A stretch of DNA of 39,713 nucleotides from a bacterium (GTDB taxonomy: Bacteria > UBP15 > UBA6099 > JAJRTR01), in contig JAJRTR010000191.1 of the NCBI GenBank assembly GCA_024278215.1, positions 1 to 39,713 on the forward strand, written 5' to 3'. Below are positions 8,525-25,809 of the stretch, one piece after another. The position numbers and the translations under genes are program-made. The notes under the pieces are model-generated. The model saw only the letters and a list, made by a program, of their open reading frames with translations. It did not search any database and was not told where the DNA came from. The stretch's first letter is position 1, and each line of letters opens with the position of its first letter.

Positions 8525-9565
8525 CTACGGTTTGCTGTTTTTTCCGGCCCTGACGATGCCGGTGGAGATATCCTGGAACGGCTGGCGACGGACTCTGTGC
8601 GGCAGGGCCAGTTCAGCGGCCAGGTCTATGTCTTCACTTTCCACGGCGCTTCGCCCTTCATACGCGGCGATGGTTTTTGCTGTTTTCAGTGTGATGATGT
8701 CGCCCCTGTGTCCATCCACGCCTACTTCGATACAATAATTAGCTATTTCCAGCATCAGTTTTCTATCGACAGCAACCTCCGGGAACAGCGCGATCGCCTT
8801 TTTGATCTTTCCGACGACAGCTTCCGATTCTTCTTTCCAACGTTCTATGAAGTCCCGCGGATTATCGTCGAAAGAGGCCCGCCGCTCCATGACCCGGACG
8901 CGCTTTTCGGGGTCGAGAATACCTTCTATGTTCACGCAGAGGCCGAAACGGTCGAGCAACTGGGGCCTTAGTTCGCCCTCCTCGGGATTCATGGTGCCGA
9001 CCAGCGTGAAGCGCGCAGGGTGCGTGAAGGAGACACCTTCACGCTCGACAGTGTTGACCCCCATGGCGGCGGAATCGAGAAGCACGTCGACGACATGATC
9101 GTCCAGCAGATTCACTTCATCGACATAGAGGATGCCCCTGTGCGCGGCGGCGAGGATGCCGGGTTCGATGCGCTTTTCACCTTTTTTCAGGGCGTGCTCG
9201 ATGTCCATGGTTCCCACGACGCGGTCTTCGGTTGCGCCCACGGGCAGTTCCACGACACGCACTTTCCGCCGCTCGACGGGCGGCGCCTGTTTCTGTTCGA
9301 CAGCGGCCCGGCAGTCCGGGTTCACACACTCGGCGCAGATGTCTCCGCCGTGCGGTTTTCGCAATTGATAGGGACAGTTTTTCACGACGTCGATCTGCGG
9401 CAGGATGTCCGCCAGAGCGCGCACCGCCGTGGATTTCGCGGTTCCCTTTTCGCCACGGATGAGAACACCGGATATGGTTGGGTTGATGATGTTGAGGACA
9501 AGCGCGAGTTTCATTTTTTCCTGGCCGACGATGGCCGCGAACGGATAAATATGTTTTGTCTGCAT
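8525..9565 (-). CDS. AAA+ ATPase subunit of a class I metal chelatase (ChlI/BchI-like)
   Basis: A 346-residue AAA+ protein of the Mg-chelatase I-subunit family, which forms hexameric rings that drive metal insertion into tetrapyrroles with the D and H (here CobN-like) subunits. Walker A is GEKGTAKST (38-46); Walker B is [13 protein letters not shown]; the family motif [18 protein letters not shown] carries the sensor and Arg-finger region. A Cys cluster (NCPYQL, then CAECVNPDC) inserted after the first strand-helix unit could bind zinc. It is the last gene of the cluster; its ATG overlaps the stop of the D-subunit gene (TAATG), which implies coupled translation. No chlorophyll genes are present, so magnesium protoporphyrin is an unlikely substrate; a cobN partner 12 kb upstream in the same run of genes suggests cobalt or another metal. 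Confidence 0.9.
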
Positions 9566-11577
9566 TATGTAACGCTCATTACGATGTCAATGAGTTCTCT
9601 GGTTTTAAGTTCTTCGATTTTGAAGTAGTCGGCGCCCAGCGCCGCGGCGAGGCGGGCGGCGAGTCCGAAATGAGTGAACGACGATGTTTCTGTGTCTACG
9701 ACAATATATTTAATGCGCGGCTCGAGGAGCATATTTCCGGCGATGCGCATGATTTCGTCCTGTGGTTTGCCGTCGCCGAGCGCCACGTTGGATTTACCGT
9801 CCGTTATTATGATACAGATGGGCCCGGCAGCAGGCTCCTTGAGCAAGTGCACTTTCATGAGCCGGAATGCTTTCTGAAGCCCGCTGGAAAGCGGTGTGCG
9901 GCCCCCCACGGGAAGCTCGCGCAGCATCTTCGCGGCCAGTTCGATAGAACTTGTTGGTTGCAGCACCACCTCCGCCTCCTGTTTCCGGAAGACCACCATA
10001 GCCACGCGATCCCGCTTCTGATATGCGTCCATAAGCAATGAGAGGATAGCGCCTTTGCTTGCCACCATGCGCGAGCGCGCACCCATCGAGCCGCTGCCGT
10101 CCACGAGAAACACCAGGAAGTTGCCGACACGTTTTTCCCGGATTTTGCCCCTTATGTCCGCTTCGTGGATGACTACGGACATGCCGTTGGCCTCGCGGTA
10201 TTTCTGGAACGGAGCGGCGGCGCGCAGCGTGGCGTCCAGCGCGATATCTCCCGACGGATTCTTCAGGCTGCTCTTAACATAACGGCCCTGTTTCCGGCTT
10301 GTGCGGGTGCGCGACCTGCGTCCCGACCCGCGCCGCACCCTGCGGTCTTTCTCATGACTGAACGGCTTGACTTTGAACGTATCACCGACATCGAAAACTT
10401 TTTCCGATGCGCAGTCCGGCGGCGCGGGCGTTTGCGTATCGCCGGATTCAGCTTCTCCGGGTTCCGGCTGCCGTGTTCCCTGTTCTTCCGGGCTGGGATC
10501 CGGAGCATTCTGTTCCCCGGGGTCGGTTTGTTGCCGTTCGTCGTGTTCATGCTCATCGTGTTCATGCTTATGCTCGTGTTCATGGTCGGGAGGCGGTGGC
10601 GGCGGAGGCGCTTCCCTGCGCCTGTGCAGAAGCGCCATGGGGGCAATTTCGAGAATATCTTCCGTGGCAACATCCGAACGTCCGTTATACGCGGCCAGTG
10701 CGCACGCGGCGCGTTCCATCACAACGTCGGCGCGATGACCGGCCACATTGTTTGCCAGGCAGATTTCCGCAATAAACTTACGGGCGGTTTCGGAAAGTGC
10801 GACACTGCCGATAAGATTGCGGGCTGCCTCGATCCTGTCGATGATTTTTTTATCCTCATCGGCAAACAGGTTCCTGAACCGTTCCGGGTCGATGTCGAAC
10901 CGTTCACGCAGTTCCATAAGCTTCACGCGGTCCCGGGGGTTCTCTTCTCCGACAACAGGAACGGCCAGTCCGAAGCGGTCCAGCAACTGCGGCCTTAGTT
11001 CGCCTTCTTCGGGATTCATGGTTCCAACGAGGATGAATTGCGACGGGTGGCGCACGGAAATGCCTTCCCGCTCGACCACAATTACCCCGTTCGACGCCGC
11101 GTCGAGGATTATGTCCACGATATGATCATCGAGCAGGTTGACCTCATCCACATAGACGATGCCGCGATGCGCCCGTGCAAGCAGGCCGGGGCGGAAGCGG
11201 CGCACACCGCTTGTTACGGCAAGGCTGAAATCCATGCTGCCGAGCACCATGTCTTCCGTGGCGTTCAGCGGCAGGTCCACCACCGCCACTTTTCTTTTCG
11301 AGGTGGGCGGAGACCCGGTGTTTTCCCCGCATAATTCACACAAACCGGCCTCGTTGCCTGGTTCGCAGGAAAAAGCACAACCCCGGACGATGTCGATCTC
11401 CGGAAGCAGGGAAGCGAGCGCGCGGACTGTCGTGGACTTGGCGGTCCCCTTTTCGCCGCGCACCAGCACGCCTCCGATGTGTGGATCGACGGCGTTAAGA
11501 ACGAGCGCCAGCTTCATGGCTTCCTGGCCGACGACGGCGCTGAATGGATAATTGATCCGACCTGCTCTCTTTAACAT
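9565..11577 (-). CDS. AAA-VWA subunit of a class I metal chelatase (ChlD/BchD-like) with His-rich linker
   Basis: A 670-residue protein with three parts: an AAA+ domain (1-320), an acidic Pro/His linker (about 324-400) and a von Willebrand A domain (about 485-670). Unlike many D subunits, its AAA domain keeps an intact Walker A (GEKGTAKST, 41-49) and Walker B ([13 protein letters not shown]), so it may hydrolyse ATP. A Cys group (C67, C71, C80, C83) parallels that of the I subunit. The linker has seven Pro then seven His among Asp/Glu (residues 331-348), a likely metal-holding tract. The VWA MIDAS is complete: DGSGS (493-497), T561 and D593. By family the D subunit bridges the I ring and the large tetrapyrrole-binding subunit. 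It begins 9 nt after the EcfT gene. Confidence 0.9.
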
Positions 11578-11586
11578 AAAGGAACC

Positions 11587-12474
11587 TCATAGATAATTCT
11601 TCGCGAAACTGTACAGCGGACGTAATGAAGACGAATAATACAGCCCGTGAAAATATAAGAGATAGATCACTTTGGCGGAAACCACGGAAACGATGATTAA
11701 AACCATGATCAGAGCCGCCGCCGTCTCCGGCATATTCAGCGATTTCGGCTTTTGAACGACGCGGGAGACCGAAGGAGAGAAACCGCGGCATTCCACGGAC
11801 AGTGCCAGGAAGCCGGATTTCCTCACAAGGTTCGCAAGGAGCGGATTCATGATGTACACGGCTGTGCGGACAGGATGGATAATACCGTATTTCAGGGCCC
11901 GGAATCCTTTTATCCGCATAGCGATGAGAATGGAGTTGACCTCTTCGAGCAGGATAGGAATGAACCGGAAAGACGTAATCAGCATAAAGGCCTGGGCATA
12001 AGGAACTCTCAAGCGGAGCATGCCCGCAAGCATGTCCCGGGGTTCGGTGGTCCACACGACAAGCATGCCGAGAGTTGTCATAACGAGAAAACGCAATCCC
12101 TGGACGATTCCATATATGAAACCCTCTTTAAAGATAAACACGCCGCCGGTCAACCGACCGGGCACGTCGGTAGCGGATGGAATGATAGTAAGAATTGCCG
12201 TTCTGGGGGTTCCGGCATAGAAGACAGCCTGGCTGAACACTGTGCCCCAGAGCGCGACGGAGAGAAGGATAAAAAGCACTTTCAGCTTCCGGGTTTCGGT
12301 TCTCGCGGCGGCGTGCAGAAGCAGCGCCAGAACGGAAAATGATCCGAGAGTAACCGGCGAGTCGATGATAACAACGAGAATGGATACACAGAACAGGCCC
12401 AGCAATTTCACACGCGCGTCGAGCCGTTTCACCGGCGACGGCGCTGTGTTGACACCAAGCAATGATTTATTCAT
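11587..12474 (-). CDS. ECF transporter transmembrane component EcfT (CbiQ family)
   Basis: A 295-residue polytopic membrane protein of the EcfT/CbiQ family, the coupling subunit that joins the paired ATPases to a substrate-binding S component. I choose the ATG at 12472-12474: it forms an ATGA overlap with the ATPase stop codon, has GGAG 6 nt upstream, and is followed by the usual DARVKLL start. Five or so hydrophobic helices are visible. Two coupling-helix motifs of the family appear as AMRIKGF and, near the C-terminus, SVECRGFS, equivalent to the Ala-Arg-Gly motifs that contact the ATPases. Co-location with the fused ATPase and an S-like protein indicates a dedicated (group I) ECF module rather than a shared one. 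Confidence 0.9.
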   Translation of the reverse strand: MNKSLLGVNTAPSPVKRLDARVKLLGLFCVSILVVIIDSPVTLGSFSVLALLLHAAARTETRKLKVLFILLSVALWGTVFSQAVFYAGTPRTAILTIIPSATDVPGRLTGGVFIFKEGFIYGIVQGLRFLVMTTLGMLVVWTTEPRDMLAGMLRLRVPYAQAFMLITSFRFIPILLEEVNSILIAMRIKGFRALKYGIIHPVRTAVYIMNPLLANLVRKSGFLALSVECRGFSPSVSRVVQKPKSLNMPETAAALIMVLIIVSVVSAKVIYLLYFHGLYYSSSLRPLYSFAKNYL

Positions 12475-14171
12475 GCGCCGCTCCATATCGAAATAAAATC
12501 ATTCACCGTGGCTACAGGCGCGTCCACCCCCATGTTCCAGGCGATTTTCATCACGTCGCAGGGAACCAGGGCGCATTCGGGGGTGAACAACGATGGAGTG
12601 AAATAGTTTTTCGGGGTGCCGTCATAATGAATACATCCTTTTTTCATAACCAGTAGCCGCGTGGCGTGGCAGACGGCGGTGGCGAGATCGTGCGTGGAAA
12701 ACAAGAGCGTTTTCCCCATGCGCTCGAAGTGGTCCATCATCTCGCTGATATTATTCCGGTCCTGCCCCATAGTGGGTTCATCCAGGAGAATGATGTCCGG
12801 GTCCGGAGTGAGAAGAGAGGCCACAGCCGTGCGCAAGCGCTGCCCCCGGCTCAGGGCGAAGCAATAGTCGTTTTTAAGAGGTTCGATCATCATGACATCC
12901 AGAGAGGACCGGACCATGACGTCCATTTTTTCCCGGGGAACACGGCTGTTGCGCAGCGGGAATCTCAGTTCCTCGATCACCGTTTCGCGGATCAACATCA
13001 GGTCTGGATTCTGGAGCAGGAATCCCGCCCGGCTTCCGAGAACGGCACCGGGTTTCGGGACGACGCCGTCATACAGCACCCGGCCGCGCCGCGGCTTCAG
13101 AAGCCCCGCGACAAGCAGCAGCAATGTGGTCTTGCCGCAGCCGTTCGCCCCCATGACGGCAACCCGTTCGCCGGGAAAGATGTCGAGACTCAGGTTTTCA
13201 AACAGTGGTTCCGTTTTGTTATAATAAAATGTAATATTCTCGATTCCGATTTTGGGTTTGTCGCGCGAGCCATGGCCGGTTGAATTGCCCGCGCACGGCT
13301 CTTTGTCCGCCGGAGGCGGCTTTATGTTTTTTACCCGCCCGTTCTCTCTGAGCAGCGGCAGGGCGTCCGAAACGTCGAGGGGTCTCTCCTTAAAACCCAT
13401 GCGGGCGAACAGTTCCGCGCTCTGAGGCACGTTGAGGCCGAGTCGATTATAAACGGACAGATCGTCGAACGCGCGGGCCGCGTCCATATCCAGAATGATC
13501 TCACCGTTTTCCATGATCACGACACGGTCCGCAAACCCGGCGACTTCGTGGACGCGGTGCTCCACCAGGATAATCGTCTTATTGTGGTCCCTCGCGAGCA
13601 GCCCGAGGGCGTCGCGCAACGCCGCCGCACCCCGTGGGTCCATCTGCGAGAAAGGCTCGTCCATGCACAGGATGTCGTGGCCCACAGCGAGCTGGCCCGC
13701 AATGACCACGCGCTGTTTCTGACCGCCGGACAACTCGTCCGTGCGCCTGTCCAGGGCTTCCGCAAGGCCCACGCTTGCAAGCGCTTCGGCGATCAGGGAT
13801 TCTGTCACGGACTCGGGCAAGCCCCTGTTTTCCGGCCCGAACGCGACTTCGTCGCGCACTATGGACGTAAATATTTGTTCGTCGGGGTTCTGAAACACGA
13901 GCCCCACTTTTTCGGTAATACTATGAATGTCCGCACGTCTTGTATCCTTCAGGTGCCCTATCTGAACACGCCCCGTCATCACGCCTCCGGATTCATGCGG
14001 GATGATCCCGCTGAGGCATTTCATGAGCGTGCTCTTTCCGCAACCTGTGGGGCCGGTAATGAGCATAACACTGCCGTCGGGCACATCCAGACTGACGTTT
14101 TTCAACGTGGGTTCCGAACGCCCGGGGTAGGTGTACGAAAGGTTTTCTATTTTCACAAAATGATGGCTCAC
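12471..14171 (-). CDS. Fused double ECF ATPase (EcfA1-EcfA2 / CbiO-CbiO)
   Basis: One 566-residue chain carries two ABC ATPase domains. Domain 1: Walker A GPTGCGKST (40-48), Q-loop FQNPDEQ, signature LSGGQ (147-151), Walker B ILCMDEP (D171-E172). Domain 2: Walker A GANGCGKTT (341-349), Q-loop LLQNPD, a slightly degenerate signature LSRGQ (440-444), Walker B IILLDEP (D464-E465) and switch His in STHD. About 60 residues (to 566) follow the second core. The two domains are joined by a charged, Pro-containing linker (about 270-305). The start codon is GTG, overlapping the stop of the upstream membrane protein by 4 nt (GTGA). FQNPDEQ is typical of ECF ATPases. Confidence 0.93.
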   Translation of the reverse strand: MSHHFVKIENLSYTYPGRSEPTLKNVSLDVPDGSVMLITGPTGCGKSTLMKCLSGIIPHESGGVMTGRVQIGHLKDTRRADIHSITEKVGLVFQNPDEQIFTSIVRDEVAFGPENRGLPESVTESLIAEALASVGLAEALDRRTDELSGGQKQRVVIAGQLAVGHDILCMDEPFSQMDPRGAAALRDALGLLARDHNKTIILVEHRVHEVAGFADRVVIMENGEIILDMDAARAFDDLSVYNRLGLNVPQSAELFARMGFKERPLDVSDALPLLRENGRVKNIKPPPADKEPCAGNSTGHGSRDKPKIGIENITFYYNKTEPLFENLSLDIFPGERVAVMGANGCGKTTLLLLVAGLLKPRRGRVLYDGVVPKPGAVLGSRAGFLLQNPDLMLIRETVIEELRFPLRNSRVPREKMDVMVRSSLDVMMIEPLKNDYCFALSRGQRLRTAVASLLTPDPDIILLDEPTMGQDRNNISEMMDHFERMGKTLLFSTHDLATAVCHATRLLVMKKGCIHYDGTPKNYFTPSLFTPECALVPCDVMKIAWNMGVDAPVATVNDFISIWSGA

Positions 14172-16030
14172 TCGACCACCATCCTCAGACGTTTTCCCAT
14201 GCTAAGCCCCAGAGCCGTGCCGATAACCGTGTAGAACACACCTCCGACGAGTATATTCAAAGCGATATACCAGTCCGCATAATACAGCCGGTAGAGGAAG
14301 ACCACGGACTCCATGTTGAAGAACGTAGCCACGGACTCGGACAGGGCGAACGCCACGAACAGTCCGGCGGCACCGACACCCCGCTCCGGCCCACTGCGTG
14401 TCGCACCCGCGCCCCACAACGCCGCTTCCGCCGTCAGTGCGTGCACGGCCATCCACAATATCGATACGAGCGATAGGTTCCCAAGCAGAACCCAGGACAG
14501 CAACAGCCTCACGGCCATGACGAGAGACATGGTTCCCGGTCGCGGCACGAGCATAATCAGTGAGGTCCACAATACATACTGCACCACGCCGAAAAACAGG
14601 CCCGAGGCAAGGAAACTGAACGGCCCCAGCAGAGCCCGGAACACGTCCATAAACAGTGTGCCCGGTACATTCACAAGCACGAAGCCCACGGCGCCGTACA
14701 ATGAGATCAATACAATCCAGCGGACTTTGAAACCGCTCATTATGCTCCTGAAGCGGATAAAGAAAACGAACAGAAAAGCGCCGGCGAGTACGGCCCCGGC
14801 CACGGTTGCGACAAACGGTACAATGGGATGCTTCTCCACGCGGAAATCATGTTCACAGGTGGAGAACGGCCTATCCGCTCCCATCTGCGTCAGGGACAGC
14901 AACAGCCTGTAATCCCCCTCGCGCACGGACACGGGTTCCACGTAGACCGGAAGAACGACCTTCGTCGACGCCTCCCTTTTCACGATCACTGTCGCAAAGA
15001 CTTCCCCGAGCGGATTCACGTGCGGGTCGGGAGTAAACGCTTCGACCCGCTCCCCGCTCTCCGCGTCGACGATACATGCCTTCAGCAGAACGACGGCATC
15101 TTCGCCGAGCGTGTTTTTCACAGTGACCTGGAAAAAACCGAATGGAAGTTGTCTGAAGTTCGTTTCCCGGTATTTCTCCCCGGTAAGAATGGCCCGCAGG
15201 CGTGTCACAGTCGACAGATGCAGCGTGTTTTTTGTCAGCCTTTCGTCCGGTTCTCCTTTATCGTTCGTGGGAAACGCGACTCGTGAGACACGGATGCTCT
15301 TTCCGAGAAATTCGGAGTTCACGACCCTGATCTGAATGTTGTCCGTGTGCAAAACAGCTCCGTTCTCTGAAACCGTCATACTTATATTACGGTATTCACG
15401 TGTCGGGTTCGCCGGACTTTTCACAGTCAGTGGAATGATCCTGGAGTCATACCGGTTCGCCAGGCGCAGAGCGAATGTGCATTCCACCCGCGCGCCGGCG
15501 TTCATCAGGCAACGCCCGTCTTTCCCATCGACTGGCGAAAAACCCGCCGGGAACATTATCCGGACTGATATATCTCTTGGACTGTCCATGCTGTTCGCCA
15601 CACGAACGCTCCCCGTTATTTCCGTATCGACCGGCACGGCCACCCGCTTTGTTTCCATGCCGAACGGGAATTGAAACGCATAATAATTCTCTTTCCCGTA
15701 AACAGGAGAAACGGTGTTGTACAGGATATTCCTTTCATCCGTGTGGAGGCTGATGTGATATTCAGTTTTTTCGTTCCATTCACAGTTCACTGTTATGTGG
15801 TCATTCCTGTAATCGTGCGGAAACACAGCTCTGCCCCGGCGGTTGCCCTGTTCGTCGATGATGTCGACAGACGATATGCGGGCGGCGCGGTTCAAAACGA
15901 TGTGGACCGCGCCGCGCGAAAACGACACTGACTCGATATCAGCCGTTTTTTTCGCGCACGACCCGAAACCGGCAACGATAAATGCCATAAGGAGAATAAA
16001 TGGTTTCGCCTTCCTACCCACCGGCAACAA
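14168..16030 (-). CDS. S-component-like membrane protein with large extracytoplasmic lipoprotein-type domain
   Basis: An unusual 620-residue protein. Residues 1-25 form a signal peptide ending in a plausible, non-ideal lipobox (FGSC25). Residues about 30-395 look like two or three beta-sandwich (Ig-like) modules. Residues about 400-615 contain six or seven hydrophobic helices (from VPFVATVAGAVLAGAFLF to LSMGKRLRMVVE), the size of an ECF S component. It sits directly before the ECF ATPases (4-nt overlap) and overlaps the propeller gene by 17 nt, which is where an S component would be expected. It lacks the N-terminal Met-His-Ile-Pro-Asp-Gly signature of CbiM/NikM. Both the TTG start and the exact first residue are uncertain. 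I infer that it recognises the imported ligand, with the ectodomain receiving it in the periplasm; no family I know matches the whole protein. Confidence 0.6.
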   Translation of the reverse strand: MLPVGRKAKPFILLMAFIVAGFGSCAKKTADIESVSFSRGAVHIVLNRAARISSVDIIDEQGNRRGRAVFPHDYRNDHITVNCEWNEKTEYHISLHTDERNILYNTVSPVYGKENYYAFQFPFGMETKRVAVPVDTEITGSVRVANSMDSPRDISVRIMFPAGFSPVDGKDGRCLMNAGARVECTFALRLANRYDSRIIPLTVKSPANPTREYRNISMTVSENGAVLHTDNIQIRVVNSEFLGKSIRVSRVAFPTNDKGEPDERLTKNTLHLSTVTRLRAILTGEKYRETNFRQLPFGFFQVTVKNTLGEDAVVLLKACIVDAESGERVEAFTPDPHVNPLGEVFATVIVKREASTKVVLPVYVEPVSVREGDYRLLLSLTQMGADRPFSTCEHDFRVEKHPIVPFVATVAGAVLAGAFLFVFFIRFRSIMSGFKVRWIVLISLYGAVGFVLVNVPGTLFMDVFRALLGPFSFLASGLFFGVVQYVLWTSLIMLVPRPGTMSLVMAVRLLLSWVLLGNLSLVSILWMAVHALTAEAALWGAGATRSGPERGVGAAGLFVAFALSESVATFFNMESVVFLYRLYYADWYIALNILVGGVFYTVIGTALGLSMGKRLRMVVE

Positions 16031-17534
16031 ACTTCACAGGTATGATGTGCAGGTTATGCACGCCGGTGACGGTATCGTTTTCCAGCCTGATCGGCACCTC
16101 GATACCCGCGAAATAGGCTCCTTTCGGTGAGAAACGGCCCGTGACCGATATGCCCCTCAACTGGAAGTCGCCCAGCCGCGCAACCGGCTCCGTGTTTCCA
16201 GGCTGATACTTCAGGAAATAGAAACCGGACGCCTCGAGCGTATTCTCGATGTAATTGTGATTGACGAGAATTGCAGTCAGGCCCGATCCGGGAAGCGGCG
16301 ACAACCCATCGATAGCGCCGGGCGCTTTCCATTTCCAGAGTATGTCGCCGTTGCTGTTGAAGAGGAACGCCGAATTGCTGTCCGGGTGTTCCGTGGGTGG
16401 TTCCTGCGCCGCGTCGGCCACAGTTCTTTTCGCGTATGTATTCCCGGAAACCACAAACACGGCCCCATCGTCGAACACGGTACTGTATTTGCCGCCGGCG
16501 TAGATAGGGATGCCGCTTACAGTCATCAGGGTGGTTATGTCCCTGCGCCAGAGCAGCCGCAGCGCCGGGCCTTCATCGACTGCGAAAAGGTGAAGCCGCC
16601 CGTCATTTGTGGCCGCGGCCACGAACTTGCCGTTAGGAGACACGGACAGCCCGTACCACATACTCGTGTAATCCATTATCGTCGGTTCGATACGATAAGC
16701 GTCGCTCTGTTCTCCCGTGGCGGCATTAATAAGCCGGACGGTCCCGTTTTCATATTTCTCCACGGGCGCTCCTTTCCTGCGCCAGCTCGTGTTCGCCCCG
16801 ATGATGTGTTTCAGGGGCTTGGAATAGAGAGGAAACGGCATACGGGTGTCCATGGTTTCCGTTTCGGGGAATCGCCATAGTATCTTTCCGTTGCGCGGCT
16901 CAAAGGCGTAAAGCAGTGTTTTCGTCGGATAATGAACGATCCTGCCGCCATCCGGGAGTTCGAGCATGACCCGGTTCGAATGCGTGCCGACCGCGAACAG
17001 GGTGTCTTTAGACGCTGTCAGAGAATAGACGCACGCCTGGTGTGTCCAGCGGGCAGTCTCGATATTTTCCGGGCGGCCTACATCGTCGCCCACGGCATAG
17101 ACCCATTTCAGTTTCCCGGTATTCAAATCGATGGCGTAAATGTTGCCGTCCATGCTGCATTCACCGGCGTATACTGTTCTGGAGTCCGGGGATATGGCCA
17201 CGCTGCGCCCGTAACTTTCAGGAATGTTGAAAGTCCATCTCCGCTCACCGACGGCGCTGAAAAGTTTGATCGTTTCATCGAATCCGGCCACGGCAATCCA
17301 CTTCTCATCCGCAGATACGGCAAGCGCTTCGTAGTCTTTCTTGTTCCAGTCGGTGACCGAGGGAATATCCTTCAGGGCTCCCAGTCTCACTTCGATAGGC
17401 CTGTCGGGCAGCGCCGCATTTGTTTTTTGGGATGCAGCCCCCTCGCAGCCTGTGAGCACCAGCGTCGGCGCGGCTGTCAGGGCGATCAGCAACGCGGATA
17501 GAAGGAAACGCCTTGTTTTTTTATCTGTCGTCAT
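16014..17534 (-). CDS. Beta-propeller (PQQ/WD40-like) lipoprotein
   Basis: A 506-residue envelope lipoprotein. I choose the ATG at 17532-17534, because GGGAG lies 11 nt upstream and a textbook lipobox (LVLTGC30) follows. The mature chain is made of repeated four-strand blades with motifs such as WIAVAGFDETIKLFS, TVYAGECSMDGNIYAIDLN, LLYAFEPRNGKILWRF and FVAAATNDGRLHLFAV, most like PQQ-binding-like or WD40 propellers, with roughly seven or eight blades. No catalytic residues can be named. It begins 8 nt after the ABC-2 permease gene and overlaps the S-like gene, so it belongs to this operon. A role as ligand-holding or scaffolding partner of the transporter is inference only. Confidence 0.8.
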   Translation of the reverse strand: MTTDKKTRRFLLSALLIALTAAPTLVLTGCEGAASQKTNAALPDRPIEVRLGALKDIPSVTDWNKKDYEALAVSADEKWIAVAGFDETIKLFSAVGERRWTFNIPESYGRSVAISPDSRTVYAGECSMDGNIYAIDLNTGKLKWVYAVGDDVGRPENIETARWTHQACVYSLTASKDTLFAVGTHSNRVMLELPDGGRIVHYPTKTLLYAFEPRNGKILWRFPETETMDTRMPFPLYSKPLKHIIGANTSWRRKGAPVEKYENGTVRLINAATGEQSDAYRIEPTIMDYTSMWYGLSVSPNGKFVAAATNDGRLHLFAVDEGPALRLLWRRDITTLMTVSGIPIYAGGKYSTVFDDGAVFVVSGNTYAKRTVADAAQEPPTEHPDSNSAFLFNSNGDILWKWKAPGAIDGLSPLPGSGLTAILVNHNYIENTLEASGFYFLKYQPGNTEPVARLGDFQLRGISVTGRFSPKGAYFAGIEVPIRLENDTVTGVHNLHIIPVKFVAGG

Positions 17535-17542
17535 ATTTGGAA

Positions 17543-18280
17543 TTACTCCCTTGCCCGCATGATGGACCTGACCGCGAACGGGAAAAGCACGGCGGCAAGG
17601 CCGAAAAGCAGCAGCAGTCGCCACATATCGAAAGGCTGCCCCAGAGCGGATGAACGAATTACAGCGGCGGCGTGCGTCAGGGGTATAACCGTCAGCATTT
17701 TCTGTACGATCCACGGCATCTTTTCCAGCGGAAAGAATGTACCGCTCAGGAACGCCATAGGAGTTATGATAAAACTGGTAAGCATACTCTGATCCGCATG
17801 AGACGAGATGGACATGGAAACCATGATCGCAATGCAGCAGAAAACCAGGGCGTTGCCGATAATCCCCAGCCAGAAAAACAACCCGGCATTCAAATATATC
17901 CCGAATGCAGCGCCGATGCCCAGGGTGATCAACACTCCGATGAGCGAACGGGTCAGTCCGTACATTATTTCGCCGATGGTGTAATTGAGCGCCGTGACCG
18001 GTGAACAGAGTATTTCGTCGAACACGCGCCAGTAGAACCGTGAAATATTTATATCCGCAGCGATGGCGTATGCGTATGTCATGCTGTTCATGGCCACGAT
18101 GCCGGGGATCAGGAACCGGATATAAGGCACTCCGTCCACTGTCATGGAACCGCCCACGCCGAACCCGAACGTGATCACATACAGGAGCGGCGACACGGAC
18201 ATAGTCAGCATCTGCTTGAACCAGCGATGTTTGAGGATGCGCATTTCACGCAAATAGACGGCAATTATCTGTTGCGACAT
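17543..18280 (-). CDS. ABC-2 type exporter permease
   Basis: A 245-residue integral membrane protein of the ABC-2 family (NodJ/DrrB-like), with six predicted helices after a short cytoplasmic amphipathic start (VYLREMRILKHRWFKQML). The conserved ABC-2 stretch is visible near helix 5: FIITPMAFLSGTFFPLEKMPWIVQKM, of which SGTFFPLEKMP is diagnostic. Together with the ATPase encoded just upstream (1-nt TGATG overlap) it should form an exporter or lipid/complex-molecule flippase. Its presence in an uptake/chelatase cluster is unusual; it may export a demetallated product or a carrier, but nothing in the sequence shows this. Confidence 0.92.
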   Translation of the reverse strand: MSQQIIAVYLREMRILKHRWFKQMLTMSVSPLLYVITFGFGVGGSMTVDGVPYIRFLIPGIVAMNSMTYAYAIAADINISRFYWRVFDEILCSPVTALNYTIGEIMYGLTRSLIGVLITLGIGAAFGIYLNAGLFFWLGIIGNALVFCCIAIMVSMSISSHADQSMLTSFIITPMAFLSGTFFPLEKMPWIVQKMLTVIPLTHAAAVIRSSALGQPFDMWRLLLLFGLAAVLFPFAVRSIMRARE

Positions 18281-19203
18281 CAGTGCCCGTGTCCCCCCCT
18301 CTTTCTGCCGAGAGATCCGCGCGCGCGACGCTCGTGCGCCGCAGTGTCCTTCGCGCCCCGGTCGCGTTTCACTATGCCGTGGCCCGTCAGGTCGAGAAAT
18401 ACATCCTCGAGGTTTACCCGTCTCCTCGTCAGCGGACTGGGATGGGAGACGATGTGGCGGTCCGCCTCTTTCCGGGTCTTGAAAAACCGGCTTTTTATGG
18501 AGCCGTCCTCGAGATCATCGACCGCCCATTCTCCGAGAGTCGCCTTGAAGTTGTCCGGCGTATCTATACGGACGATCCTCCCTTTATCAATGAACGCCAC
18601 CCGCTCGCAAAGGAACTCGGCTTCCTCGATGTAATGCGTTGTGAGAAAAAGCGTTGTGCCGTGCGACTGGGCCGTTTTAATAAGACTCCAGACGCGGCGG
18701 CGGATAGCCGGATCGAGCCCTACCGTCGGTTCGTCGAGGAAAAGGAGTTCCGGCTCGTGGAGCAGCGCGCGACCGATCATGAGCCTACGCTTCATACCGC
18801 CGGAGTAATTCTTGATCTGCTCGTGAGCGCGGTCCGTGAGTTCGGCAAACTCGAGCATTTCGCCGATGCGACGCAGCCGCCTGTTTTTTCCCATACCGTA
18901 GAACCGCCCGTGGTTGTCAAGGTTTTCCCACGCCGTGAGATCGTTGTCCAGGTTGACATGCTGGTGCACTACGCCTATGCGGCGGCGCGTGGCCACGTCC
19001 CGGCGCAGCAGGTCGATTTCGTCGAGCTGCGCCCTGCCGCCGTCAGGAACAGCGAGCCCCGTTAGAACCTTGATGGCTGTGGTTTTTCCTGCGCCGTTGG
19101 GACCGAGAAAACCGAAAAGTTCCCCCTTGTCCACTTCGAGGCTCACGCCGTTGAGCGCCTGCGTTTTGCCGTAGGTTTTTGTCAGTCCCTCGATGCGCAG
19201 CAT
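18280..19203 (-). CDS. ABC-2 exporter ATP-binding protein (DrrA/NodI-like)
   Basis: A 307-residue ABC ATPase. Walker A (GPNGAGKTT), signature (YSGGMKRRL), Walker B (LLFLDEPTVGLDP) and switch His (TTHY) identify the DrrA/CcmA-like exporter class. The final ~80 residues form the usual small C-terminal domain plus a basic tail (ERRARGSLGRKRGGHGH). I choose the ATG at 19201-19203 because AGGTGG lies 6 nt upstream; the frame extends to a TTG at 19227 with no better signal. It overlaps the permease start codon by one nucleotide. A strong hairpin at 19232-19263 separates it from the receptor gene. Confidence 0.92.
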   Translation of the reverse strand: MLRIEGLTKTYGKTQALNGVSLEVDKGELFGFLGPNGAGKTTAIKVLTGLAVPDGGRAQLDEIDLLRRDVATRRRIGVVHQHVNLDNDLTAWENLDNHGRFYGMGKNRRLRRIGEMLEFAELTDRAHEQIKNYSGGMKRRLMIGRALLHEPELLFLDEPTVGLDPAIRRRVWSLIKTAQSHGTTLFLTTHYIEEAEFLCERVAFIDKGRIVRIDTPDNFKATLGEWAVDDLEDGSIKSRFFKTRKEADRHIVSHPSPLTRRRVNLEDVFLDLTGHGIVKRDRGAKDTAAHERRARGSLGRKRGGHGH

Positions 19204-19231
19204 CAGTATCCACCTGCTCCTTTTCAATATT

Positions 19232-19276: not shown

Positions 19277-21607
19277 TCAGAATTCCAATTTCATGCCCGC
19301 GGTGAATGTGCGGCCCGGGGCAAGGTAATACTCATAGTAATCCTCGTCGAACAGGTTATCGACGTTGATGAAAAACTCTTTATCCGAATGTAGTTTGTAT
19401 ACAAACGACACGTCCACGAGATCATATTCGTCGTACTCGCCGTACACGTGGCTGTGGTTGTCCGAGTTGTCTTCGTAAGTGTGGACTTTGTCACGATGAT
19501 TCCAGTTTATGCCGAGCGAGAAGCTGTCACCGCCCCGCAACGGCAATCCGTAATCGAACCCGAGGTTATACATGAGATTCGGGTTCTGCTCCATCTCGAG
19601 GCCGACGATAGCCGGGTCGGGCGCGCTTTTCACTTTCGACATCTGACTGGTCATGTTGAAATTCGCCGTGAGCCTGTTATTGAACTTGTAGTCCGTTTCC
19701 AGCTCGATGCCGCGAATCACGACCTTGCCGAAATTCTCCTTCTGCTTCACGGTCGGTCCCGTCGAAATCGTGATATTGGAAATCATGTCCTGAAGTGAGT
19801 TCCGGAAATATGTGGCACGCATGGAAAACTTCCTGTTGCCGGGGATGAAATCGAAACCGAGGTCCCACGCGGTGTTGACTTCCGGCTTCAGCGCAGGGTT
19901 GGAGCGGTACACGGTCCCCGACGACGTTGTCCAGGTGCCGAAGAGGTCATAAGTGCCCGGGGGATTGAACGCCTGGCCGAAATTGAAGCGCCAGTTCACG
20001 TCGCCGCCCGGCTTGAACAGGAGCCCTATCTTTGGGCTGACCCGCGATTTAGTGCGTGAAGGCATGGGATAGTTCGCCGGGTCCGCCGGCACCAGCGACG
20101 TGCCCGAAGCCGTGAGCGATTCGCCGTCATATACTTTCCAGTTGTCGTATCGCAAACCCGGCGTAATTATCCAGGAACCGCCGGACGTTATTTCATCCTG
20201 CAGAAATATCGAGCGGAACCGCACCTTGCCCGCCTGCAACCTGGTCCGCTGTCCTGACCGGTTCTCATCTTTCCAGAATGCCACCTTCCACGACCCGTTA
20301 TCCAGTTCGTTTTGCCGCCATTCGAGCCCGCCGGTGAGGATGTGGGCATCCAGGTAATAATTCCCTTCGGCACGGAAATCGAGATTATCTTCTTCCCTGT
20401 AATTATGGGTTGCGGACCCGCTTGTGGGCGTGGCCGACGATGGAATACCACTGTTGTACCAGCGTTTGATCGTGCGCGTATCGAGCGAGAATCTCAAATC
20501 CGTGTTCGAGCCCGTCCGCGTGTTGTAATAGAAAGAGTAGTCGTCCCGCGCCTCGCCGCCGGGTCCTTTGATCCAGTTGCCTGTTTTGTCCGCCGATGTG
20601 ATCTTATATACATTCGTATCGCCGGGGAAACTCACATATACCGTGCCGCTCGCGCTCGGATTGCCGTTCAGGTCCGTCAGCCAACTGTGGCCCGTTTCAT
20701 ACTCGTATTCCGAATCAGAGTAGTTGTAGCGCATACCCATCTCAGTTCCGGGTTTGAATTCGTAGCTCAGGTCCAGCCGTATGTTGTCGTCTTCATTATG
20801 TCGTGCGCCAACTTCCCCGATAAGCGCGCGCTCATAATTCCCTATGGGGTTGTAAACCGCGCCCGCCGTATCCGCCGGATTGGACGTGTCCACACTGATG
20901 GTTCTGTATTTGAACTGGCTGACATACCCGTCGGTTTCCAAGCGGTTGTAGCCCAGACGCAACCCCATGCCGGAATGGAATTTTTCCGAATAGGACAGAT
21001 TGTAATTGTTCGTATTATATGTACCGAAATCAGTGTCGAGAGAAATCTTCTGTTTGCCGGGCTTTTTCGTGATGATGTTGATCACGCCGCCCATGGCGTT
21101 CGCGCCGTAAATGGCGGAATTAGGACCGCGAATCACCTCGATTCGGTCCACATCATCCAGCGGCACATTGTCAAGGATCATGCCGCCGCTGTAACCGTCG
21201 TTGAGACGCACGCCGTCGAGTAGAATCAGCGTGTGCCCCTGGTTGTCGCCGAGACCGCGCAGCCCTAGCTTGGCCGTGGTGTCGCCGGGGAACGATTTCT
21301 TGATGTACACGCCCGCCAGCCTGTCCATCACATCCTGTAAACCCTGATTCCCGGACAATGTCGTTTCGTCCATGTTCACAACCGACGAATAAAAGGATAC
21401 GTCTTCGAGCATGCGCTCCGATTTTGTGCCGGTTACTATAATCTGACCAAGATCGAAAGGCTTGTCCCGGCCGTCTTCCTCAACCGGCTGTGCGACAACT
21501 ACTTCATTCTCGTCCCCGGCAATATCCTGCGCCGCCGCGCGCGTGCAACATGCGATGCCCCAGATAAACAGAAACAGAACCATCACCACCGTATTTCCGA
21601 ATTTCAT
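19277..21607 (-). CDS. TonB-dependent outer-membrane receptor (BtuB/siderophore-receptor-like)
   Basis: A 776-residue receptor. It starts with a signal peptide (MKFGNTVVMVLFLFIWG, cut near AAAQ), then a TonB box (IIVTGTK), the plug domain (about 55-165) with the typical LGLRGLGDNQ, LLDGVRLND and IEVIRGPNSAIYGANAMGGVINI motifs, and a 22-strand barrel ending in Phe (TFTAGMKLEF), as needed for BAM-mediated insertion. Substrates of the family include cobalamin, haem, siderophores and other metal complexes; the specific ligand cannot be read. No obvious haem-receptor FRAP/NPNL pair was seen. GGAGG lies 7 nt before the ATG. It follows the cobN-like gene by 85 nt, which links outer-membrane uptake to the chelatase. 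Confidence 0.93.
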   Translation of the reverse strand: MKFGNTVVMVLFLFIWGIACCTRAAAQDIAGDENEVVVAQPVEEDGRDKPFDLGQIIVTGTKSERMLEDVSFYSSVVNMDETTLSGNQGLQDVMDRLAGVYIKKSFPGDTTAKLGLRGLGDNQGHTLILLDGVRLNDGYSGGMILDNVPLDDVDRIEVIRGPNSAIYGANAMGGVINIITKKPGKQKISLDTDFGTYNTNNYNLSYSEKFHSGMGLRLGYNRLETDGYVSQFKYRTISVDTSNPADTAGAVYNPIGNYERALIGEVGARHNEDDNIRLDLSYEFKPGTEMGMRYNYSDSEYEYETGHSWLTDLNGNPSASGTVYVSFPGDTNVYKITSADKTGNWIKGPGGEARDDYSFYYNTRTGSNTDLRFSLDTRTIKRWYNSGIPSSATPTSGSATHNYREEDNLDFRAEGNYYLDAHILTGGLEWRQNELDNGSWKVAFWKDENRSGQRTRLQAGKVRFRSIFLQDEITSGGSWIITPGLRYDNWKVYDGESLTASGTSLVPADPANYPMPSRTKSRVSPKIGLLFKPGGDVNWRFNFGQAFNPPGTYDLFGTWTTSSGTVYRSNPALKPEVNTAWDLGFDFIPGNRKFSMRATYFRNSLQDMISNITISTGPTVKQKENFGKVVIRGIELETDYKFNNRLTANFNMTSQMSKVKSAPDPAIVGLEMEQNPNLMYNLGFDYGLPLRGGDSFSLGINWNHRDKVHTYEDNSDNHSHVYGEYDEYDLVDVSFVYKLHSDKEFFINVDNLFDEDYYEYYLAPGRTFTAGMKLEF

Positions 21608-21692: not shown

Positions 21693-24600
21693 TCAAAGAT
21701 TGAGTTTCCCAAGTATCGAGTCCATTTTCCCTTTCCAGGCCTCCACGTCATCCGCCGTCATCACGTCTACCGAACCGCCCTGAAACTCACCGGCCACATC
21801 GCCGATGCGGTCTTCCATCCACGCCTCGACCTCAAGATAAGCGTCCTTGAGTTTTTCGAGCATTTCCGGGTCGGGCTTCCAGATACCCCGCCCGGCGGCT
21901 TCGAGCAATCGCCTGCCGATCTCCTCCAGCGCCCACGGGTTCACTTCCTCGAACCACTTTTTCATTTCCTCGTCCAGCACAAATGTTTCGGCTACCCTGT
22001 CGTAAATCCAGTTGTCCACCTTGCCCGTGGTAGCGCCGAATCCGTACACGCGCCCGATGCGTTTGTTTAAATCGCCCGCACCCTTGTAGCCATGCTTTTT
22101 CATGCCTTCAATGTATTTCGGGTTCAGTAGTTTGGCACGCACCACACGGCGCATTTCATCCGTGAAATCCGTGACGCGGATGTTCGCCGGGTCGCGTGTG
22201 TCGCCGTAGTAGGTTTTGGGTGCCCTGCCGGAAATGGTTTTCGCCGCCACCGTCATGCCGCCGTAGTTGCTGTAGAACCCGCAACAGTTGAGAAAATCGG
22301 ACTCGTCGGAGATGTGCTTGTCGAATGTGACTTCCACGCGGCGCAGGTTGTCCACAAGTTCCTGGTGGGCTTCCACTCCATAGTTGCTTTCGCCGCCATA
22401 GGCGTAACCGTTCCAGAATACGTACACGTCGGCCAGGTCTTTTTCCGTTTTCCATGCCGAGGCGTACACCGCGAGATTCACACCCGCCCGGTAGGTGCCG
22501 GGCCTGGCACAGAATATGCGGTAACTCAGCCGCCGCAGGCTTTCCCTGTCATCCAGGGGCAGGCCGCGCTCCGCCGCCTGGTTCACGATGTGTTTGCGCA
22601 CGAAATTCCGCTCGGGCGGCTCGGCAAGCATGGCCGCCGCCTGGATAGCGCGGTCCATGTACATAATGGAATCCGGGAAGCAATCGCGAGCGATGCCGGA
22701 CACGCGGATGTTCAGGTCGATACGGGGGCGTCCGAGCTCTTCAAGCGGGATCACGTCGAACTCATCAACCTGGCCGTTCGCTTTCCAGCGTGGCCGCAGA
22801 CCCAGCAGATGCAGCATCTGCGCTATCTGCTCGCCATCGGCGCGCATGATGTCCGACGCCAGCCACACCAGCCCAACGGTCTCCGGGAAACGCCCTTCCT
22901 CATCCATATATCTTTTAAGTAACGCTTCGGCCAGGCGGATGCCCACCCGGTGCGCCGCCCTGGTGGGTATGCGCGTTGGGTCCACGTTATAGAAGTTGCG
23001 GCCCGTGGGCAGAACGTCATACCGGCCCCGCGTGATAAGGCCGGAAGGCCCCGCTGGTATATATCCGCTGCCGAGACCGTTGAGAAGCGATTCTGTTTCA
23101 AGGGAATCATCGAGACGCATGCCGATGTCTTTTACAAGCGCGGCAAACGACGCGAACCGCCCGGCCTCACCGTTTGCGGGTGCGCGTTCGAAACACTGCT
23201 CGAACACCGCGGCGTTGTCGCCGCCTTCCAGTAATGCCGATATTATTTCAATAGCTTTTTCATCCGCGTCGAAAAGAATCTCGCCGTATGTTTTTCCGCA
23301 ATTGCCCCGTGCGCCCGGCTCCCTGAGAGCACGAAGAATGTCTTCGCCCCATATATCGAAAACCAGCCGCCGCGTGCTCAGAGGGTCGTTCGAATCGAAA
23401 CGCAGGATTGAGTTCACATATTCAGCGCGCTCATCGCCTTGCGGGCGGTCACCGAATACATGCATACCGTATCGCATCTGGCTGTTGCGCACCTCGGACA
23501 GCAGTTCATGGCACCGCGTGGCCACCTCGTCGAACGATTTCGTATTCGCGTCATTTATTTCGTCCCTGAAATTGCACTTGTCGATCTGCTCCTGCACCTG
23601 GTGTTCGATCTGGTGCGCCCGCGCCGGGTCCGTGTGTTTCGCTCGCTCGTAATCGTTGAGCAGGTCTTCGAGGTCTTTGAGATCGTCGTAAGTTCCCGAT
23701 GTGGTAATCACTGTCTGCATGTGGTCCACGAGGGTAGCGTAACTGCGCCGCTTGGCGATCACACCCTCGGCGGGGTTGTCCGAGTTGTAGATGTAAAGGT
23801 GCGGCAGATTGCCGATGCTGATATCCGGCCAGCACGATGCGCTCAGACCCGCGCCCTTCCCGGGCAGAAACTCGATGTTCCCATGCGTGCCGACATGTAT
23901 CACAACATCCGCGCCGAACACGCGCTCCATCCACATATACGTGGCGATGTACTGGTGCGGCGGGGGGATGTCGGGGTCGTGGAGAATCTTGCACACCGTG
24001 CCGTCGCAGCGTGGCCCCGCGCATCCGCGCTTTGGCTGCATCATTACCAGCACAGTCCCGAAATCCAGACCGGTTATAACGAGTTTGCCGTCGTGCACCA
24101 TGCTCGGCGGCACTCCGTTCATCTCGCACCCCGGGGGGGCGCCCCAGCTTTCCACCATGCGCACGCGCGCCTTCGGGGGCAGCTCTGCAAACCACTTCTC
24201 ATATATTTCGTTATCAAGCAGCGCCAGGTGCCCTTTCTTTGAAATGATTTCCTCGACCGTGGTCCAGCGGAATTCGGCAATGGCCTTCCGCTCCAGTATC
24301 TTCCGCATCAGGGCCTCGCCAGACTCCGGGATGGCCCGCACGCCATATCCCTCGTCGCCGAGACGGCGCATCAGGCGCACCACGCTCTCTCCCGAATCCA
24401 GACCGGCGGCCCCGCCAACGTTCGCCTCCAGACCCGCACACTCGTTCTTGTGAAATACAAACACCACTTTCCGTTCGCTCACTGGTTTGCGGCTCAAAAC
24501 AATCCACTTGTGTATGCGGTCGACAACGTGTTCCAGGCGCTCGGCTATAATGTCGCGCAACTCATAAACGGTACCTGTCTTTTCATCTTCATGCTTTTCG

Positions 24601-25577
24601 CTGCACGCTGCGATAATGGGTTCGATGCTGCCCTCGAACTCGGGCATTGCGACGCAGAAACTGATTTCCGTGGTCAGGCCCTGCTCATCCTCGTCCCATT
24701 CAGATACGGACTTGCTGTATGAAACCACAGGCTTGAACACCGGCACATTCAGTTGTTTGAAAAATTCGACTGTCTGCCCGGCGGCCGTAGTGTCGGACCT
24801 GTCGGCGCGTGCCTCCCGGCCGAGAAAGAAAAAATGCAGATTGATCAGCGCATGTATGCGCGGTTCGCCCGCGGCATTCAGGAAATACTTCTTCGCGGCG
24901 CCCAGCGCGCCCAGGGAGCCGGACTCCGCATCGGACGTACCGTGACTGAAAACAGGCAGCACGCCCAGCCCTCTGCGCTCCAGCGATTCAACGAACGCCT
25001 CCTCGAGCTGCATACTCTGGTTCACGTAATCATGACGGGAAAACAGCAGCCCCACGGTCAGACCGCTCTTTAATGGATAGCCGTTCATATATTCCCGGAC
25101 AGATTCGAACACCTCGCCGCCCGGAATACGCATCACGCCCTGCCACGGCATGGGCTCGGGGTCTTCAACGGGAATGGACGGATCGAACCGGGCCGCCAGG
25201 AAATCCAGCAGCCGCCTGTAATTGTCCAGACCGCCTTCGGACAGGTACGTATATGCCGCGGCGCATATCGCTGGTTCAACCGTGGCGCTCATCCCCCACA
25301 TCGCCGGATCGAAAGATGTGGAAACAACTGTCTTGTCCGCCGCCGACAGGAGATAATCGTCAACTTCATCCCAGAACGGATCATTGGTTCTGTAAAAAAA
25401 TAAAACGTCGGAAGTCTCCGCCACCTTCTTAAAATCTTCCAGAAGATTTTCATCCGATATGATCTCTTTGTGAGAAAACACGCTCAATTCAACGTGGCTG
25501 CATTCAGACACAGCCTTCACCATCAGCGGAACATAAGAAGACCAGACAATCGCGGCTATACGAACCTTTCTATCCAT
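21693..25577 (-). CDS. cobN: CobN/BchH-family large chelatase subunit
   Basis: A 1294-residue cytoplasmic protein of the CobN/ChlH family, the tetrapyrrole-binding subunit of class I metal chelatases. I choose the ATG at 25575-25577 because GGAG lies 6 nt upstream; the frame extends upstream without similarity. Family motifs are clear: HVGTHGNIEFLPGKGAGLS (about residue 561-579), IGNLPHLYIYNSDNPAEG, NFYNVDPTRIPTRAA, FCARPGTYRAGVN and YGGESNYG. Before the HDPDIPPPHQY motif it carries a C519-x4-C524-x4-C529 insertion, which I associate with a CobN subgroup of anaerobes rather than aerobic CobN or ChlH. Bacteroidetes HmuS, tied to haem use, is also in this family, so metal removal is as possible as insertion. 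No cobalamin biosynthesis genes adjoin. It is first in the ten-gene run. Confidence 0.9.
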   Translation of the reverse strand: MDRKVRIAAIVWSSYVPLMVKAVSECSHVELSVFSHKEIISDENLLEDFKKVAETSDVLFFYRTNDPFWDEVDDYLLSAADKTVVSTSFDPAMWGMSATVEPAICAAAYTYLSEGGLDNYRRLLDFLAARFDPSIPVEDPEPMPWQGVMRIPGGEVFESVREYMNGYPLKSGLTVGLLFSRHDYVNQSMQLEEAFVESLERRGLGVLPVFSHGTSDAESGSLGALGAAKKYFLNAAGEPRIHALINLHFFFLGREARADRSDTTAAGQTVEFFKQLNVPVFKPVVSYSKSVSEWDEDEQGLTTEISFCVAMPEFEGSIEPIIAACSEKHEDEKTGTVYELRDIIAERLEHVVDRIHKWIVLSRKPVSERKVVFVFHKNECAGLEANVGGAAGLDSGESVVRLMRRLGDEGYGVRAIPESGEALMRKILERKAIAEFRWTTVEEIISKKGHLALLDNEIYEKWFAELPPKARVRMVESWGAPPGCEMNGVPPSMVHDGKLVITGLDFGTVLVMMQPKRGCAGPRCDGTVCKILHDPDIPPPHQYIATYMWMERVFGADVVIHVGTHGNIEFLPGKGAGLSASCWPDISIGNLPHLYIYNSDNPAEGVIAKRRSYATLVDHMQTVITTSGTYDDLKDLEDLLNDYERAKHTDPARAHQIEHQVQEQIDKCNFRDEINDANTKSFDEVATRCHELLSEVRNSQMRYGMHVFGDRPQGDERAEYVNSILRFDSNDPLSTRRLVFDIWGEDILRALREPGARGNCGKTYGEILFDADEKAIEIISALLEGGDNAAVFEQCFERAPANGEAGRFASFAALVKDIGMRLDDSLETESLLNGLGSGYIPAGPSGLITRGRYDVLPTGRNFYNVDPTRIPTRAAHRVGIRLAEALLKRYMDEEGRFPETVGLVWLASDIMRADGEQIAQMLHLLGLRPRWKANGQVDEFDVIPLEELGRPRIDLNIRVSGIARDCFPDSIMYMDRAIQAAAMLAEPPERNFVRKHIVNQAAERGLPLDDRESLRRLSYRIFCARPGTYRAGVNLAVYASAWKTEKDLADVYVFWNGYAYGGESNYGVEAHQELVDNLRRVEVTFDKHISDESDFLNCCGFYSNYGGMTVAAKTISGRAPKTYYGDTRDPANIRVTDFTDEMRRVVRAKLLNPKYIEGMKKHGYKGAGDLNKRIGRVYGFGATTGKVDNWIYDRVAETFVLDEEMKKWFEEVNPWALEEIGRRLLEAAGRGIWKPDPEMLEKLKDAYLEVEAWMEDRIGDVAGEFQGGSVDVMTADDVEAWKGKMDSILGKLNL

Positions 25578-25809
25578 GAGAAACTCCAGAGAAATGGAAT
25601 AACTTTGCCGGTAAAGGAAGAGCCGGAGAGAATCCGAGCGAACGGCCTCTCCCCGACTCCAGGAAGGCATTTGCAGCAAAGTGTGAAATATCGGCGAGGG
25701 TTACGTTTTTGATATTCGTGTTACCGGCAAAACAAAAAAAATTGGTATAATAAAAGGGCTTCATCGAGAGTGTCGTTAAATTCTCAATCAGTTCATCCGG
25801 AGTTCCCAT
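25570..25809 (-). CDS. Possible small leader ORF overlapping the cobN start
   Basis: A 79-codon frame starts at an ATG (25809) with AGG 6 nt upstream. It stops at a TAG inside the first codons of the cobN-like gene (ATGGATAG, 8-nt overlap), so translation of the two could be coupled. The middle reads NVTLADISHFAANAF, which faintly recalls the C-terminal helices of M16 peptidases, so it could be a gene remnant. The same DNA also folds into the long-range structure at 25604-25731, so the open frame may be chance. I cannot decide between leader peptide, remnant and noise. Confidence 0.3.
   Translation of the reverse strand: MGTPDELIENLTTLSMKPFYYTNFFCFAGNTNIKNVTLADISHFAANAFLESGRGRSLGFSPALPLPAKLFHFSGVSHG
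25604..25731 (-). promoter_or_regulatory. Structured leader of the chelatase/uptake operon
   Basis: TTTGCCGGTAA (25604-25614) and TTACCGGCAAA (25721-25731) form a perfect 11-bp long-range stem in the leader RNA, about 20 nt before the cobN ribosome-binding site. Inside it GAGCCGGAGAG (25620-25630) pairs along 11 positions, with two G-U wobbles, with CTCCCCGACTC (25649-25659). A stem closing a multi-part fold just before a start codon is the layout of a riboswitch or protein-binding leader. No cobalamin B12 box or other consensus core that I know is present. A MITE-like element is the alternative. Confidence 0.4.

Follow-up and report, generated by a model that had tools for sequence, protein, structure and literature searches.

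An S-like subunit with a large Ig-like ectodomain in a conserved ECF importer cassette, probably for a corrinoid or other tetrapyrrole

Knowledge of ECF importers comes mainly from single-membrane bacteria; the S subunits of these importers are small and need no binding protein. What could be the role of an S-like membrane domain that carries a large extracytoplasmic domain and is encoded in an operon with a TonB-dependent receptor? This question is raised by a gene in a 39,713-nucleotide stretch of bacterial DNA (the window), which a preliminary description had read as an S-like domain fused to a lipoprotein-type ectodomain, serving as a built-in substrate receiver and representing a new architecture for ECF importers. 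We found the open reading frame on the minus strand where that description had placed it (Table 1). Scans of its product with Pfam and NCBIfam models returned no match, even with the threshold relaxed to E = 1. The reading frame is not a chance one, since 48 genomes of another class encode diverged homologs and an alignment of 30 members contains conserved columns in both parts of the protein, ectodomain and membrane domain. We treat the TTG start as provisional because no clear ribosome-binding site lies before it.

The surrounding genes are transcribed from the minus strand in the order CobN, TonB receptor, ABC-2 ATPase, ABC-2 permease, beta-propeller lipoprotein, target, EcfAA, EcfT, ChlD and ChlI. 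As had been noted, ECF ATPases and EcfT directly follow the target, the ATPases being fused into one protein. The target shares 17 bases with the 3' end of the propeller gene and 4 bases with the start of EcfAA, and EcfAA and EcfT overlap by 16 bases; these overlaps of 4-17 bases suggest a single transcript from the propeller through EcfT. The ABC-2 ATPase and permease pair (window 17543-19227) recurs in or near the cassette at six other loci (L040, L041, L048, L050, L103, L104). Elsewhere, the window genome encodes two cobalamin riboswitches and one strong FecCD-type ABC system. It also contains a lone BioY-like gene (L093 6786-7400, G000:C182) and, beside thiamine genes, a second EcfT-EcfA pair that no S gene was seen to adjoin (L092, G000:C206).

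Table 1. Features of the target gene and its operon (positions in the window), and FolT-like S genes of other neighbourhoods (positions in the loci named).
Feature	Position	Strand	Basis or remark
CobN-type chelatase large subunit	21693..25679	-	NF004646 1565 bits, cut-off 1468
TonB-dependent receptor	19277..21607	-	PF00593, PF07715
ABC-2 ATPase	18280..19227	-	PF00005
ABC-2 permease	17543..18280	-	PF01061
Beta-propeller lipoprotein (WD40/PQQ-like)	16014..17714	-	homologs adjoin most cassettes
Target gene: S-like subunit with ectodomain	14168..16030	-	620 codons/aa, TTG start tentative
Signal sequence with lipobox-like FGSC25	15930..16030	-	hydrophobic N-terminus, read from sequence
Ectodomain, about residues 34-400, predicted tandem Ig-like beta domains	14829..15929	-	AF2, Foldseek, alignment
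Linking transmembrane helix, residues 403-432	14735..14822	-	AF2 model; hydropathy peak 407
Six-helix S-like domain, residues 436-619	14174..14725	-	AF2 TM-only model, Foldseek to 5edl
Small-xxx-small motif S443..A447, helix 1	14690..14704	-	both positions small in 30/30 members
YRLYYADWY motif, residues 580-588, candidate substrate site	14267..14293	-	outer loop 5 by inferred topology
EcfA-EcfA fused ATPase (EcfAA)	12471..14171	-	TIGR04520 371.9 bits, cut-off 315
EcfT (CbiQ family)	11587..12486	-	PF02361 93.3 bits
ChlD-like chelatase subunit	9565..11577	-	TIGR02442 789.9, cut-off 779
ChlI-like chelatase subunit	8525..9565	-	TIGR02030 442 bits, below cut-off 467
FolT-like S genes	L038 7668-8201 (about 0.9 kb upstream of target); L037 8083-8688; L048 522-1097		own EcfA/EcfT none seen

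In its membrane part, the target has a linking helix followed by a domain of six helices, which fixes the earlier count of six or seven helices at seven. Modelled alone, the membrane domain (AF2, pLDDT 80.9, pTM 0.79) found its best PDB match by Foldseek in YkoE, a thiamine S component (5edl; TM-scores 0.66/0.65, probability 1.00), with an E-value of 2e-3 that is moderate, not overwhelming, and comes with AF2 input alignments of 4-5 sequences. CbiM ranked second, and RibU, ThiT and PanT lay lower, with E above 1. The top matches are thus S components, and the S-like domain that had been proposed holds up against the concern that its fold might be unrelated to them. Two further traits of S components are present: the gene is encoded together with EcfT and EcfA, and helix 1 contains the small-xxx-small motif that in S components faces EcfT (Table 1), although this motif is not strongly conserved in YkoE itself (PMC5037267). 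In Pfam scans, PF09819 (YkoE family / ABC_cobalt) matched the membrane domains of two relatives below its cut-off of 25.2 bits (22.1 and 20.8 bits; E 6e-4 and 1e-3) and did not match the window protein, and PF01891 (CbiM family) gave no match. When the membrane domain was compared at profile level with one PF09819-like relative, no signal emerged. Sequence and HMM/profile searches of the PDB returned nothing significant and no S component; matches to IrtA and integrin were taken as chance or generic fold.

The orientation of this domain can be read from Anaerospora, where the membrane domain is fused to ATPases, which places its C-terminus in the cytoplasm. With the C-terminus inside, the N-terminus secreted and a single linking helix ahead of the six others, the S domain would start inside, and the loop with the YRLYYADWY motif would face outside. 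S components bind their substrate on the outside face and usually have an N-in, C-in orientation, which the linking helix would preserve here. Within the motif, R581, A585 and W587 are invariant and Y580, Y584 and Y588 nearly so among the 30 aligned members. Residue 465, predicted to lie in outer loop 1, is His in 27 of these members and Arg in the window, and may serve as an axial ligand or make a charge contact.

The other half of the protein begins with a hydrophobic N-terminus that contains the lipobox-like FGSC25, followed by beta-rich sequence up to about residue 401, in agreement with the signal peptide, Cys25 and beta-rich region reported before. Lipidation is a different matter: a lipobox-like Cys is seen in the window and, more weakly, in one relative (L009), that is in 2/30 members or 1/29 aligned relatives, and we rejected the lipoprotein as a family trait; for the window protein, this reading rests on Cys25. 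In the full-length AF2 model (pLDDT 66) the ectodomain scores mostly 50-85. Its Foldseek matches, with low TM-scores, are the tandem Ig-like folds of integrin, RbmA and WxLIP, and it looks like a tandem Ig-like structure, a claim that extends to the general fold class only. Ig-like folds often act as spacers, and the ectodomain is the less conserved half of the protein (mean column identity 30% vs 57% in the membrane domain). Both points would suit a structural or sensory attachment, for example one that tethers the envelope and takes no part in substrate handling. We consider this rather unlikely: the ectodomain was found in all members inspected, and Anaerospora retains it as a gene of its own (320 aa) that adjoins, under the same riboswitch, an 813-aa gene for the membrane domain and two ATPases. 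The modules are thus separable and re-fused in nature.

A scan of named genomes yielded three relatives, all from Negativicutes (Anaerospora hongkongensis, Candidatus Avacidaminococcus and a Sporomusaceae genome), and within this class homologs occur in 48 of 381 genomes. Six further genomes from the same small phylum as the window contained no relative, and neither did viral contigs or plasmids. The family has two forms. The short form (about 540-600 aa) is encoded in the order target-EcfAA-EcfT-propeller. The long form (about 620-636 aa), to which the window protein belongs, has an additional N-terminal beta domain (about residues 30-110) that is restricted to it, and usually stands with CobN, ChlD and receptor genes. 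In the tree, the window groups with the long-type members (95/90), on a very long branch (2.77) that makes its placing unsure.

The fusion of a large extracytoplasmic domain with an S-like domain recurs, and it does so in a conserved cassette. We mapped the genes around 31 copies, in the window and 28 further neighbourhoods; 30 of these copies have their own EcfAA and EcfT beside them. The remaining copy shares a G302 operon (L040, G302:C1:58100-78000) with another target, and this operon reads TARGET(636)-EcfAA-EcfT-ChlD-ChlI-ABC2-ABC2-TARGET(628)-PROP-CobN and gives the second target no ECF module of its own. A beta-propeller gene was detected by script at 28/31 copies; one locus stops at a contig end, and one has no propeller by direct search. 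Within about 10 kb of the target, a TonB receptor gene is present at 21 and CobN at 11 of the 31 copies. A separate S gene, which would have spoken against the earlier reading, does not occur inside the cassette; small FolT-like S genes of one type lie outside it, near a TonB receptor, in 3 of about 28 neighbourhoods (Table 1) and could share the cassette's ECF module. In G307, a YkoE-like small S gene (L095 4827-5396) adjoins a TonB receptor gene (2570-4660) far from the cassette.

Regulation offers a lead to the substrate. A cobalamin riboswitch precedes 14 of the 20 assessable short-type copies, a count that leaves out three copies near a contig end and one unscanned. At four of these cassettes the riboswitch lies 137-320 bases before; at nine more, a script placed it upstream in the same direction, with no intervening opposing gene of at least 200 aa, and the distant ones are weaker evidence because these genomes often have many cobalamin riboswitches. 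In G073, tandem cobalamin riboswitches stand before the gene series CobN-radical SAM-ChlI-ChlD-receptor-target. None of the seven long-type copies, including the window, has a cobalamin riboswitch, so that their substrate may differ. Upstream of the window operon no riboswitch was found, apart from a chance InvR match, and TPP riboswitches were absent from the window and the other scanned neighbourhoods.

The outer-membrane receptor in the operon, together with B12-sensing switches in relatives, points to a B12-like or related ring compound, and the substrate is probably a corrinoid or other tetrapyrrole. For the short forms, a corrinoid, a precursor of it or cobalt is most likely. Cobalt transporters are among the known targets of B12 riboswitches, and import of free or chelated cobalt for the chelatases CbiK and CobN, with the ectodomain in the role of CbiN or NikK, would also accommodate CbiM as second fold match, the nearby CbiK, CobN and ChlI/ChlD genes, and one cassette (L102, G041:C135) that adjoins genes read from their sequence as cbiD, cbiL, cbiF and cbiG. 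Cobalt import is nonetheless quite improbable as the function of the system. The target shows no evident counterpart of the N-terminal metal-binding helix of NikM/CbiM, and CbiM/NikM occur in 25 of 48 genomes with the target vs 103 of 333 without it; in view of this lack of mutual exclusion, we rejected the target as a CbiM replacement.

The window form would import a related but possibly different tetrapyrrole. Heme, or another non-corrinoid tetrapyrrole from which CobN/ChlID would remove or exchange the metal, would agree with the lack of riboswitches at all seven long-type copies. An ECF heme importer, LhaSTA, exists (PMC7299338), and the CobN-like HmuS of Bacteroides removes iron from heme (PMC12583661). 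HmuS needs no ATP (PMC12583661), however, while the window operon encodes ATPase-type ChlI and ChlD, and G073 has the same CobN-ChlI-ChlD set under its cobalamin riboswitches. The window's TonB receptor scores best with heme receptor models (221.7 bits, below cut-off, vs 142.3 bits for the B12 receptor), but such family scores are a weak guide to the ligand. We regard import of heme or another non-corrinoid tetrapyrrole by the long-type system as doubtful.

Four things are computational observations: that the membrane domain has an S-like fold, that the cassette is conserved, that its modules can be separate or re-fused, and that short-type copies are linked to cobalamin riboswitches. As their interpretation we favour, with moderate confidence, a dedicated group I ECF importer of the YkoEDC-like kind, in which the target serves as the S subunit and is extended by an Ig-like arm together with a linking helix. 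In such a system, the TonB receptor would deliver the ligand, a corrinoid or related tetrapyrrole, to the periplasm, where the beta-propeller and the Ig-like arm might hold it or hand it over to the S domain. The latter could bind it at its outer face, around the YRLYYADWY loop, and EcfT and the fused ATPases would power import by the toppling of S that is usual in this family. In the window operon, CobN with ChlI/ChlD may then insert or exchange the metal. More tentatively, as a possibility that we would not yet call probable, these steps could add up to a TonB-dependent tetrapyrrole import that uses ECF rather than the BtuFCD type, with an S subunit that receives its ligand through an Ig-like arm and a propeller, and with metal insertion or exchange on arrival where CobN/ChlID share the operon. 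The preliminary description is thus borne out in its S-like domain with an ectodomain in an ECF cassette, and not in lipidation as a family trait or in its strong claim of novelty.

If true, this conserved family of S subunits with an arm, associated with an outer-membrane receptor, would show how ECF import can be built into a two-membrane cell. Many Negativicutes would gain a candidate importer of corrinoids, tetrapyrroles or cobalt that is outside Pfam and NCBIfam coverage. In Anaerospora, nature has already split off the arm and fused the remaining S domain to the ATPases, so that the part played by the arm can be tested directly.

The closest known system is YkoEDC, the group I thiamine ECF importer of Bacillus (PMC5037267), which resembles the cassette in its single operon of S, fused double ATPase and EcfT, in its S fold and in riboswitch control, here seen in the short-type relatives. 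It differs in its thiamine riboswitch and in having neither TonB receptor nor propeller, and neither the thiamine riboswitch nor the thiamine substrate has a counterpart in our data. YkoE itself lacks the ectodomain and the linking helix, and its sequence similarity to the target family is below the family cut-off. This shared E-D-C order, together with the helper parts CbiN and NikK/NikL already present in metal ECF systems (PMC2667541), rules out a new architecture in the strong sense. CbiMNQO, NikMNQO and NikKMLQO likewise combine an ECF module with extra parts and are linked to B12 or nickel genes, but CbiN is a small, separate two-helix subunit (PMC2667541), whereas the target joins a large Ig-like domain to an S domain that is nearer to YkoE. 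LhaSTA is comparable as an ECF importer of a tetrapyrrole; unlike the cassette, it has a Gram-positive host, an ordinary small S subunit (24 kDa) without ectodomain, and Fur control (PMC7299338). In BtuB-BtuG of Bacteroides, a TonB receptor and a beta-propeller lipoprotein work together for B12, with BtuG on the cell surface (PMC10404256, PMC6143338); the cassette likewise has a propeller and often a TonB receptor, but its inner-membrane step is an ECF importer. A literature search of incomplete coverage found no description of this cassette with a large arm borne by S. The parts are of known kinds; what may be new is that a single conserved cassette unites them and that its S subunit bears a large arm.
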